Shown here piece by piece: positions 6,594-53,202 of a DNA stretch of 64,000 bases. The position numbers and the translations under genes are program-made. This DNA is from Salinarchaeum sp. IM2453 (GTDB lineage: Archaea; Halobacteriota; Halobacteria; Halobacteriales; Salinarchaeaceae). Under the pieces are notes generated by a model. It was given only the letters and a program-made list of their open reading frames with translations, was not told the origin of the DNA and ran no database searches. The stretch lies in assembly GCF_019693215.1 (NCBI RefSeq), contig NZ_CP081183.1, forward strand, positions 995,226 through 1,059,225. Direction: 5' to 3'. Within the stretch, counting starts at the first letter, position 1, and each line of letters starts with the position of its first letter.

Positions 6594-6841
6594 ACGGGAA
6601 GTAACGTGTGCTCTGACAGACGCAACCTGTTCGCTTGCAGTGATTGCAATGAGATTAGTTTTAGCAGGAGAATTAACAGCGAAAAGTAAATTACTGAAAC
6701 GGGTATCATAATTCGCTCTGGACTTGATAACAGTTCTCGGTAATCCGATTTTCTTTATTAAATTCGTCCCGTGAGACCAACTCCTTGGATACCGGTGATA
6801 GGAGTGGCTCTATTCGGGACACGTTTGTCGCATACTATCAC

Positions 6842-7316
6842 TTAACTGATTATCTTTCGATTTTTGTCACATTCTTGATCGACCCTTCTTTTCGGAACCG
6901 GTTTAACTCGAAACTCTCCGAAGCCGTACTTCGAGTGTGATCCGACCCGAGTAATTCCGTTCTTCGCAGTCGCTGTCGGACGGTCGCCTTCGTAGCCAAC
7001 CACAACACCGTGGTCTATCGCCTCCAACTTGTAGACATCACCACCTTCGACGACTTTCTCCAGACGGCGGCGCAGTTGCGCTTCGTCATTGACACTCCAC
7101 CACCACGGCACGTCTACGTTATTCGTTGCTGGATACTCCGACCGGAGTACGAACGGCGTCACGAGCTCGGGGATGAACGCCTCGCCGTCTTCGAGACGCG
7201 AGTAGTCCAGTTCGTTGAGGTCCACGACCTGCGTGTCCTTCAACGAGGTCGTGCCGTAGCCGTAGTTGCGCTTGCCACCGAACTGGAGTCCATCAAGCAC
7301 ATCCTCACCCAGTGGG
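6842..7316 (-). pseudogene. C-terminal fragment of a RAMP-fold (Cas5/Cas7-like) protein
   Basis: The open frame (about 158 residues from the in-frame stop near 7316) has two glycine-rich loops typical of RAMP ferredoxin-fold proteins: GGKRNYGYG near its start and SKYGFGEFRV near its end. These proteins include the Cas5, Cas6 and Cas7-type subunits of CRISPR effectors. It lacks a proper N-terminus: the frame is cut just upstream by a methyltransferase fragment on the other strand. Base composition is visibly richer in G+C than the surrounding genes, suggesting transfer. No Cas10, no CRISPR array and no adaptation gene is nearby. The RAMP assignment is by motif reading, not by search. Confidence 0.5.
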
Positions 7317-7523
7317 AGATTCTAGACGTTGGCTGTGGCACTGGACAATTGCTAAAAGATATCCTTACTGATCATAATGTTCAAGTCAGGGGAATCGACA
7401 TTAACCCCGGCATGCTTGAAGTTGCGAGAGATTATCACGGCATACACGGAGCAACTTATGCAGATGTCCGGAATTTTAATCTTCCATACCGATCCTACGA
7501 TATGATTCTCGCTTTTCGTGAAC
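7317..7523 (+). pseudogene. Fragment of a class I SAM-dependent methyltransferase
   Basis: About 69 codons encode a recognisable Rossmann methyltransferase core: motif I ILDVGCGTGQLL, motif II RGIDINPGMLEVA and the following ADVRNFNLPYRSYDMILAFREL. The upstream part is missing (it abuts the antisense RAMP fragment at about 7317) and the downstream part is replaced by a hairpin repeat at 7527-7547. Read through, it forms an artificial 198-codon frame whose first half is merely the antisense of the RAMP fragment. It is a relic and not expected to be functional. Confidence 0.7.
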
Positions 7524-7527
7524 TCAC

Positions 7528-7546
7528 CCCGGGGTCAAGCCCCGGG
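7528..7546. repeat. CCCGGGG hairpin, insertion-sequence-end type
   Basis: A 7-base-pair perfect stem, CCCGGGG / CCCCGGG, around a TCAAG loop. The same architecture (stem, loop T(C/T)AAG) is seen at 36244-36268 and more weakly at 29187-29212. These hairpins resemble ends of haloarchaeal TnpB-type elements. It marks the point where the methyltransferase fragment is cut. Confidence 0.55.
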
Positions 7547-7660
7547 ACAGTCGCCTTGTACCGCCTGTACAACCGCAGATTGCCCAATTTAATTTCACTA
7601 GAATAGTTTGAAAAATCATCTTGGATTACCGAAGACTGATGAAGGATAGTTTGAGCGTTC

Positions 7661-20960: not shown

Positions 20961-21078
20961 GAGCTACCTCTACCCACCCGCTCCTGTCTGTGGCTCCTTG
21001 AGAACCGGAGCTTAGGCTGCAAGAGTTGATCTTCTCCTACCCATGAACGGGCAGGCTTTCGCCTTGCTACCGCTGTAA
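20961..21078 (-). mobile_element. MITE-like remnant of a TnpB-type element (both ends, no gene)
   Basis: Reading on the minus strand, TTACAGCGGTAGCAAGGCGA starts at 21078, then a GCCTGCCCGTTCATGGGTAGG hairpin region, and the other end reads CTTGCAGCC...CTCAAGGAGCC, matching the left end of the intact element near 52600 (CTTACAGAC...CTCAAGGAGCG). The two ends are joined with no tnpB between them. It lies between ribB and ilvE. Confidence 0.6.
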
Positions 21079-21172
21079 ATGAGTGAATAGCAAAGAATAA
21101 CTAGAATAGCCGCAATTGTTGGAATGAGACCGAAACACAGTCGGACGTAGATAAAAAAAGAGGTGAATAACG

Positions 21173-24531: not shown

Positions 24532-25083
24532 TCATTCTATAACCAGCAGCAGTCTCGGTAGTACTCTTTTCAGCCTCGATAACAGTTCTCGCTCCTCGTA
24601 CAGCGGATTGATCAGCTCACAGTCGACGATGCCACCGCCGAAGTTGCGGGCACCGCCGAGCTGGTGCATGAAGTCCGTCTGATTGGCATCGAGAAAGTCG
24701 ATCGCCTCGATCAGTAGCCCGACGAATTCGGGCTTGAGTTCTCGGAACGAGAGGTGCCAAGTTCCGTCAGGGTTGCCAACGGCATCGAGTTCCGTGTTCC
24801 GGAGTGGCTGGCGGTTGTGCTCGGGGCTTCGTGAGACGACGTTACGGTTGAGCCGTCGATAGTGCTCTTCTGCCTGTCCACGGGTGTAGTCGACACTGTC
24901 GCGGACGGGCGAGAACTGGATCGGTCGACGCATCAGCTTCCCTTTCCGGTTGCTGAAGCCTCCGAACAGGTCGAATATCACGCAGCCATCCTCGTCCATC
25001 GGGTCGTCGACGCACGCATCTTTCTCGTGGTAGCCGCTGTCCAAGTCGTGGTCGTAGATGTCTTCTTTCCGGAAGGTTGGAAA
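24532..25083 (-). pseudogene. RAMP-fold (Csm3/Cas7-like) protein fragment
   Basis: The open frame runs 248 codons up to 25278, but only the part from about 25083 downwards reads as a coherent acidic haloarchaeal protein. It contains FDLFGG...RKGKLMRRPIQFSPVRDSV near the middle and a C-terminal glycine-rich loop LGGARNFGGGIVDCELINPL, which is how Cas7/Csm3-group RAMP proteins look. The upstream part overlaps the terminal repeat and a zinc-ribbon frame and is probably not native. The composition is richer in G+C than its surroundings. A functional intact gene is unlikely but not excluded. Confidence 0.5.
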
Positions 25084-25140
25084 CGCACGACTCTGGCAAC
25101 TACCATCCACCGAATAAAGAAATCGGATTACCGAGAACTG
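24550..25140. mobile_element. Inverted-repeat-bounded element B carrying a RAMP fragment
   Basis: The right end (25112-25140, minus strand CAGTTCTCGGTAATCCGATT...) is almost identical to the left end of element A at 6731-6760. A weaker inverted match, CAGTCTCGGTAGTACTCTTTTC, starts at 24550 (about 18 of 23 positions with one gap). The interior is visibly richer in G+C than the neighbours and encodes a RAMP-like fragment. No transposase is present. The right boundary is better supported than the left. Confidence 0.42.
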
Positions 25141-25156
25141 ATAAAACTCAAACGGT

Positions 25157-25270
25157 TCAATCCCAAGACTTGCACTTGCTGCATACAAGCTCATCTGAAT
25201 CTGCTGTCCAGAATAAAGTACGATCGCGTTTACAAACAGGACATAGTTTACTGTCCGGTTGCCATTGCAT
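25157..25270 (-). CDS. Very small CPxC zinc-ribbon protein
   Basis: A 37-residue frame, starting at the ATG at 25270, with two CxxC knuckles (LCPVCKRD and VCSKCK) 15 residues apart, matching the many tiny zinc-finger proteins of haloarchaea. An in-frame ATG at 25354 would give 65 residues with a Ser-rich N-terminus. It ends 17 bases outside the inverted repeat of element B. No function can be assigned. Confidence 0.5.
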   Translation of the reverse strand: MQWQPDSKLCPVCKRDRTLFWTADSDELVCSKCKSWD

Positions 25271-25414
25271 TGTGACAATAGAGGATGTAGCCGAATTTGA
25301 TTCAGAAGGAGAGTGAGAAAACTCGGTTAGTTTCGTGTCTTTCACGCCGGTCATTGCATTAATTATTATCGACCGTGGGATTCAAAAACCATCGGATTAG
25401 ATTCAATATAAGAG

Positions 25415-27304: not shown

Positions 27305-27498
27305 ATGAAATATAAGGGGGTTGCTGTAAATACGGTTACTATGTCAGCAAAAAGGAGTGATATCAGTTGTTGCAAATACGATTTCTTTATTCAGAATTGT
27401 TGCTGAAATAATCTTGGTAAATTCAGCAGTAACTGATATGAAAAATGCTCATCACCACGGCGAGGGAATTTTACTCTGATGTATTAGTGGCCAGTTAC

Positions 27499-27549
27499 TT
27501 ACAGCGATAGCAAGGCGAAAGCCCATCGGCTTTAGCCGTGTGGAGGAGA
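27499..27549 (+). repeat. TTACAGCG-type hairpin repeat at a methyltransferase 3' end
   Basis: TTACAGCGATAGCAAGGCGA followed by a hairpin with stem CCATCGGC / GCCGTGTGG around TTTA. It ends directly at the stop codon of the minus-strand methyltransferase gene, in the opposite orientation to that gene. Same family as 33691-33742. Confidence 0.6.
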
Positions 27550-41892: not shown

Positions 41893-42029
41893 TTGTACTC
41901 GCACAATAAATGTTAAAACACAAACATGTTATTCACTATTCGACGCGTAATTGCCAATGGAACGAGCTTGTTACGCGCTCTGAGCTGAATAACGAAATCG
42001 TATTACCAACAACTGATAAATGAACACAA

Positions 42030-53145: not shown

Positions 53146-53149
53146 TGCT

Positions 53150-53202
53150 TTACAGCGGTAGCGAGGCAAACGCCCACAGCTGAAGCCGTGGGCGGATGTC
53201 AA
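53150..53202 (+). repeat. TTACAGCGG-type hairpin repeat after the kinase gene
   Basis: Starts 4 bases after the kinase stop in sense orientation: TTACAGCGGTAGCGAGGCAA, then a hairpin CCCACAGC-TGAA-GCCGTGGG with one mismatched pair. Fourth sense-oriented member of the family at the end of a gene. Confidence 0.6.

Follow-up and report, generated by a model that had tools for sequence, protein, structure and literature searches.

The window analyzed here is a 64,000-nucleotide stretch of the Salinarchaeum sp. IM2453 genome (contig NZ_CP081183.1, positions 995,226 to 1,059,225 of the forward strand). It contains two short elements, A and B, in which fragments of RAMP genes lie next to terminal inverted repeats (TIRs), together with a mini-element and a solo TIR of the same family (Table 1).

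Element B overlaps an ORF of 248 aa on the minus strand (24532-25278), which had been read as the C-terminal half of a Cas7/Csm3-group RAMP. A tblastn search with the intact 287-aa Cas7-like protein encoded elsewhere in the same genome confirmed this assignment (75-78% identity over the matched segment), and the closest relative outside this genome was found in Halovenus (78%). The N-terminal part of the ORF (25087-25278) was read-through of the TIR and flank rather than RAMP sequence. General profiles scored the protein weakly (Pfam RAMPs, E=0.11; TIGR03986 of NCBIfam, E=0.0025; PADLOC Csm3, E=2.6e-4), as expected of proteins of the haloarchaeal RAMP (HRAMP) system discussed below.

The cas7 segment was located between one good and one degenerate TIR. 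The right boundary of element B (25112-25140) reads GAATAAAGAAATCGGATTACCGAGAACTG and, as the original prediction had proposed, is nearly identical to the terminus of element A: it paired with 6728-6751 at 96% identity over 24 nt, and the one-T indel between the two repeats is real (GATTTC in one, GATTTTC in the other). The weaker copy that had been noticed at 24550, CAGTCTCGGTAGTACTCTTTTCAG, turned out to be the degenerate other end of element B. ATAA follows the right end directly (25141-25144), and a second ATAA (24539-24542) was found 7 nt outside the left TIR; because of these 7 extra bases, the target duplication of element B is not clean. GC content was 59-60% within the element B DNA versus about 45% outside.

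In element A, the fragment (P0002) matched a Cmr3/Cas5-like protein in its C-terminal half and was 63% identical to the intact copy in the same genome. At the nucleotide level, element A was 79.5% identical to loci L118/L009 over 591 nt, counted from the TIR inward, and its two flanks are one base apart. A different dispersed repeat, GGCTTTCGCCTTGCTACCGCTGTAAA, was observed at window positions 21054-21085, 27492-27523 and 53149-53174 and is possibly an IS200/IS605-type end.

Table 1. Features in the window, miniatures in the same genome (contig G000:C1) and examples of the leader RNA.
Feature	Location	Strand	Remarks
Element B, 591 bp	window 24550..25140		very probably a degenerate derivative of the HRAMP transposon
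Cas7-like RAMP fragment	window 24553..25086	-	residues 81-253 of 287; tblastn against the intact protein
Element B TIR	window 25113..25140	-	CAGTTCTCGGTAATCCGATTTCTTTATT (read inward)
Element B opposite TIR	window 24550..24575	+	degenerate
Element A, 908 bp	window 6731..7638		probably derived from the right end of an HRAMP transposon of the L118/L009 type; the remainder is unrelated; flanked by ATAA and ATGA
Cas5/Cmr3-like RAMP fragment	window 6860..7318	-	residues 158-307 of 308; 84-85% identical to L118/L009
Element A TIR	window 6731..6759	+	
Element A opposite TIR	window 7619..7638	-	GGATTACCGAAGACTG
72-bp mini-element	window 27364..27435		one perfect TIR, weak opposite end; exact ATAT duplication around it
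Solo TIR, same family	window 41988..42015	-	partner looked for, none found
Miniatures with exact TSDs	G000:C1 267677-268112, 849335-849851		
Three 110-bp copies	G000:C1 812627-812736, 1575236-1575345, 2548400-2548509		miniature family; little beyond two TIRs, exact TSD each
Leader RNA	L115:6075-6157	+	competing stems GAAGC-GCUUC-GAAGC-AUG
Leader RNA	L018:12746-12877	-	same competing stems
Leader RNA	L116:5808-5889	+	same competing stems

Intact parent and derivatives in the same genome

An intact operon in the order cas7-"mid"-cas5 is present in the same genome as the window (locus L018, genes at G000:C1:1485801-1488309). It lies in an element of 3,540 bp end to end (G000:C1:1485708-1489247), whose TIRs are CAGTTGTTGCAAATACGATTTCTTTATT and CAGTTGTTGCAAATACGGTTTTCTTTATT and which has ATAA on both sides; one ATAA contains the TAA stop of a CCA-adding-enzyme gene, and that gene remains intact. 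The operon encodes a cas7-like protein of 287 aa, "mid" of about 246 aa and a cas5/Cmr3-like protein of about 298 aa (308-aa ORF). PADLOC matched the intact proteins to Csm3 (E 1.8e-6) and Cmr3 (E 1.7e-6), and the three core genes are labelled hypothetical proteins in public records.

The proposal that both fragments stem from one dispersed locus was supported, with a refinement. Their intact relatives are neighbors in one operon, in this genome and in 43 of the 44 loci collected (the cas7-mid-cas5 order being kept in these 43), contrary to what had been named as its refutation, intact relatives that never co-occur. A and B are, however, not halves of one split locus. They are two separate decayed insertions, probably of different sub-lineages, A being closest to the L118/L009 type, and the repeat is the TIR of a transposon with the operon on board. 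The suggested source, a CRISPR-independent RAMP system, was borne out, as the operon matches HRAMP and both fragments are RAMPs with the same terminal repeat.

The TIR 28-mer, with up to 3 mismatches allowed, had 22 matches in this genome versus none for the reversed control, so the repeat is not a chance occurrence. The cas5-like fragment was matched at 19 places, many of them just its last ~46 codons, and many miniatures retain only the cas5-like 3' end and a TIR. Miniatures with exact duplications measured 72, 110 (three copies), 402, 436 and 517 bp; at 72 and 402 bp, the opposite end is weak. No intact transposase of the HRAMP-element type was found in this genome, just a 185-residue piece at G000:C1:161103. 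The miniatures resemble the Haloquadratum walsbyi MITEs, short TIR elements without a transposase that need one in trans. The latter, however, cannot count as degenerate versions of their transposon (PMC3119063), whereas many miniatures here are deletions of the HRAMP transposon with the cas5-like 3' end kept.

Gene content and two lineages of HRAMP loci

Using Cas7 profile A1, we found a Cas7-like homolog in 104 of 392 haloarchaeal genomes. Unlike in type III CRISPR-Cas, no CRISPR array was found in the 44 loci (sought as a 22-mer repeated at least 3 times with a spacing of 50-95 nt) and Cas10 was absent among the annotated element genes. The gene set matches the published description of HRAMP, an array-less CRISPR derivative of Haloarchaea (Makarova et al. 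2019, as summarised in parts of PMC8730458 and PMC12669027), through which it was assigned: both comprise diverged Cas5-/Cas7-like RAMPs and a conserved uncharacterised protein, occur in haloarchaea and have no CRISPR array.

The cas7 tree separated nine loci from the other 34 with support of 100/100, and nearly all nine had HNH and DnaQ-like genes downstream, a feature shared with described HRAMP, whose associated nucleases comprise HNH and PD-(D/E)xK. By tblastn, HNH was detected in 8/9 and DnaQ in 8/9 loci of this sister clade versus 0/35 in the other lineage. The latter differs from described HRAMP in being bounded by TIRs and target duplications (TSDs), often with a transposase, and, its HNH/DnaQ nucleases missing, we regard this transposon-borne lineage as an HRAMP variant and not the canonical form. 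A and B were closest to its members. The transposase was detected by tblastn in 18 of its loci versus 0/9 in the sister clade; one of the 18 (L117) had a distant relative at 25% identity, 6.2 kb away, which leaves 17. The right TIR after cas5 was likewise present in most loci of the transposon-borne lineage and in 0/9 sister-clade loci.

A structure model of "mid" (pLDDT 71) had no significant PDB match, its similarity to Csm1 being insignificant (E 3.2, TM 0.31), and the model of the cas5-like protein (pLDDT 40) was too poor for use. A sequence search of PDB returned nothing significant. Some loci also encode a 224-aa TnpB-like protein, the RuvC and zinc-finger part only, which ends at or overlaps the cas7 start (6337-7011 in L118, as oriented; likewise in L119, L125, L131, L190, L203 and L204), placing a class-2 nuclease domain next to a class-1 backbone.

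Transposon ends, target sites and transposase

The TIRs of the HRAMP transposon are about 28 bp long, CAGTTGTTGGTAATACGATTTCTTTATT. For each right TIR, every CAGT upstream was scored as a possible left partner, and in 14 loci the 4 bases in front of the best-scoring one were identical to those just after the right TIR. These paired TIRs enclose elements with exact, differing 4-bp NTAN duplications (ATAA, ATAT, GTAT, TTAT, ATAA, ATAA, ATAT, TTAC, TTAA, TTAA, ATAA, TTAC, ATAA and GTAT). When six insertions in the Salinarchaeum genome were added, TA was invariant in 20/20 duplications and C preceded in 13; because the 20 sites had been picked for matching duplications, TA is the informative part. 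A left TIR was not found for L116, L124, L126 and L134, and the two flanks of L125 are one base apart.

In many copies the HRAMP genes abut the right TIR and a DDE transposase lies just inside the left TIR, divergently transcribed and 609-686 aa long in L115, L123 and L125. The transposase (PF01609) has invariant residues D322, D401, E515 and R-3-E-6-K and is distantly ISH3-like (IS4 superfamily). It shares with the ISH3 family a DDE transposase with a YREK-like signature, and ISH3 was its best NCBIfam family (NF033541), with scores of 82-123 bits against a cut-off of 225; its length (610-690 aa), the 4-bp NTAN duplication and a cargo of several kb are different. Left TIRs varied with the transposase type and right TIRs were less variable. 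Moreover, cas7 proteins were 71-91% identical to the copy in the Salinarchaeum genome whereas the transposases of those loci fell to about 33-37% identity, which suggests exchange of modules.

We surveyed the 392 genomes for transposase relatives, scoring three candidates per genome with a profile built from HRAMP-linked copies, and all but one of the 15 matches counted above 590 bits adjoined HRAMP genes. The exception was found in the Halobacterium salinarum 91-R6 plasmid pHSAL2 (G018:C13; L228:19447-24363), where an element with a transposase of the same type, its own TIRs and ATAA on both sides carries, in place of HRAMP, a metallophosphoesterase gene and two genes for hypothetical proteins. 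This sibling indicates that the pairing is not obligatory and that HRAMP is a prevailing but replaceable cargo; the idea of a transposase dedicated to HRAMP was dropped on this basis. In two apparently HRAMP-less genomes (L218 and L223), the HRAMP-element TIR still adjoins the transposase. An origin of the element from viruses was also considered and rejected, as no relatives were found among viral contigs or phage records.

Leader RNA and the link between HRAMP and the transposon

A conserved, covarying structured leader RNA heads the HRAMP operon at its 5' end in about half of the loci. It has a stem P1 (GAAGCGCGG/CCGCGCUUC) around two hairpins, and a competing GCUUC/GAAGC pairing just before the AUG. 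Two-sided changes were seen in 18/21 pairs, and among 26 aligned matches, a few of them weak, 95% of cells paired versus 36-43% when slid, in an alignment that was itself fitted to the structure. Matches occurred in 81/292 haloarchaeal genomes. No Rfam family reached the gathering score, only sub-threshold matches being found. A role of this RNA as an HRAMP guide was considered and rejected: a class-wide search found many HRAMP-less operons preceded by it, and we therefore regard it as leading operons of haloarchaeal mobile elements, so that it does not count as evidence for a guide. Two copies were also observed 1.3 kb apart (G000:C1:533577 and 534911), away from the intact HRAMP operon, and a similar pair in G276:C2 (13175 and 14430).

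Elements A and B very probably arose by insertion of a haloarchaeal transposon carrying the HRAMP core operon and have since decayed, losing internal parts. The view that they are unrelated, chance RAMP-like ORFs would agree with the weak profile scores when these are taken alone, but it was already refuted by 75-85% identity to the intact operon proteins across 150-178 residues and has a vanishingly small probability. It is also highly improbable that the repeat, rather than ending a transposon, serves HRAMP as a CRISPR-like guide repeat or an att-like integration site. Although it adjoins HRAMP genes across genera, the TIR/TSD geometry contradicts such a reading: inverted pairs have exact 4-bp direct duplications outside, near-bare TIR pairs of 110 bp are found at unrelated sites, and there is no repeat array in the 44 loci. 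In the transposon explanation, the transposase would act on the TIRs to move the element and would duplicate 4 bp at each CNTAN-like site; HRAMP-only or miniature copies would arise by deletion and could be mobilised in trans; and the intact transposase may since have been lost from the Salinarchaeum genome.

To our knowledge, no function of HRAMP has been demonstrated. Within the transposon explanation we favor a defence or anti-competitor module that rides along like any other cargo and is partnered with the transposon by selection only, and consider this likely. Its Cas5/Cas7 ribonucleoprotein would most likely bind nucleic acid and protect the host or the element. The cargo is exchangeable, as seen in the metallophosphoesterase sibling, cas7 is conserved across loci with strongly diverged transposases, and PMC8730458, in its passage on HRAMP, calls it a predicted defence system. 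On the other hand, close transposase relatives nearly all come with HRAMP, and the transposon-borne lineage has no nuclease genes, so that any cleaving effector has to be supplied from another source, either the TnpB-like RuvC in some copies or the host. The missing nucleases could instead point to a CAST-like system, in which the Cas5/Cas7 complex, itself without nuclease, would use an RNA to direct the transposase to its targets. Such an element would be an archaeal, independently evolved CRISPR-associated transposon, in which an ISH3-like transposase recruited HRAMP and a putative guide controlling the place or time of insertion; we regard both the guiding role and this origin as very unlikely. 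CAST systems lost their nucleases and, like the Tn7-like ones, the HRAMP elements hold Class-1-type Cas genes without interference nucleases within a transposon; HRAMP and transposase are inside common TIRs, and the operon has a conserved structured RNA in front of it. However, no Tn7 genes were seen in the HRAMP elements, nor was an array, a guide or a common target found. CNTAN is all that the insertion sites have in common, a likeness typical of unguided IS transposition, and 13/14 elements shared no interior 13-mer with the 120 bp on either side of the target; the exception was a single isolated match in L127. The structured RNA also heads plasmid/ICE-like operons without HRAMP, and one sibling with the same type of transposase carries no HRAMP. 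RNA-guided insertion found no support here, and the sites fit unguided insertion.

Transposon carriage of one HRAMP lineage is apparently undescribed, the HRAMP passages of the reviews PMC8730458 and PMC12669027 making no mention of transposition. Residence of one of the two lineages in a transposon would explain the scatter of HRAMP. With its ends defined, the element can be cloned at exact borders, and it becomes testable whether HRAMP acts for the host or for the transposon, or directs insertion. The copy on pNRC200 of the model organism Halobacterium NRC-1 (L227:4672-10677) has TIRs and TTAC on both sides, with cas7 missing, and complete or near-complete copies occur in strains that are named and can be cultured, on plasmid pNATPE01 of Natrinema pellirubrum and plasmid pHSAL2 of H. 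salinarum 91-R6.
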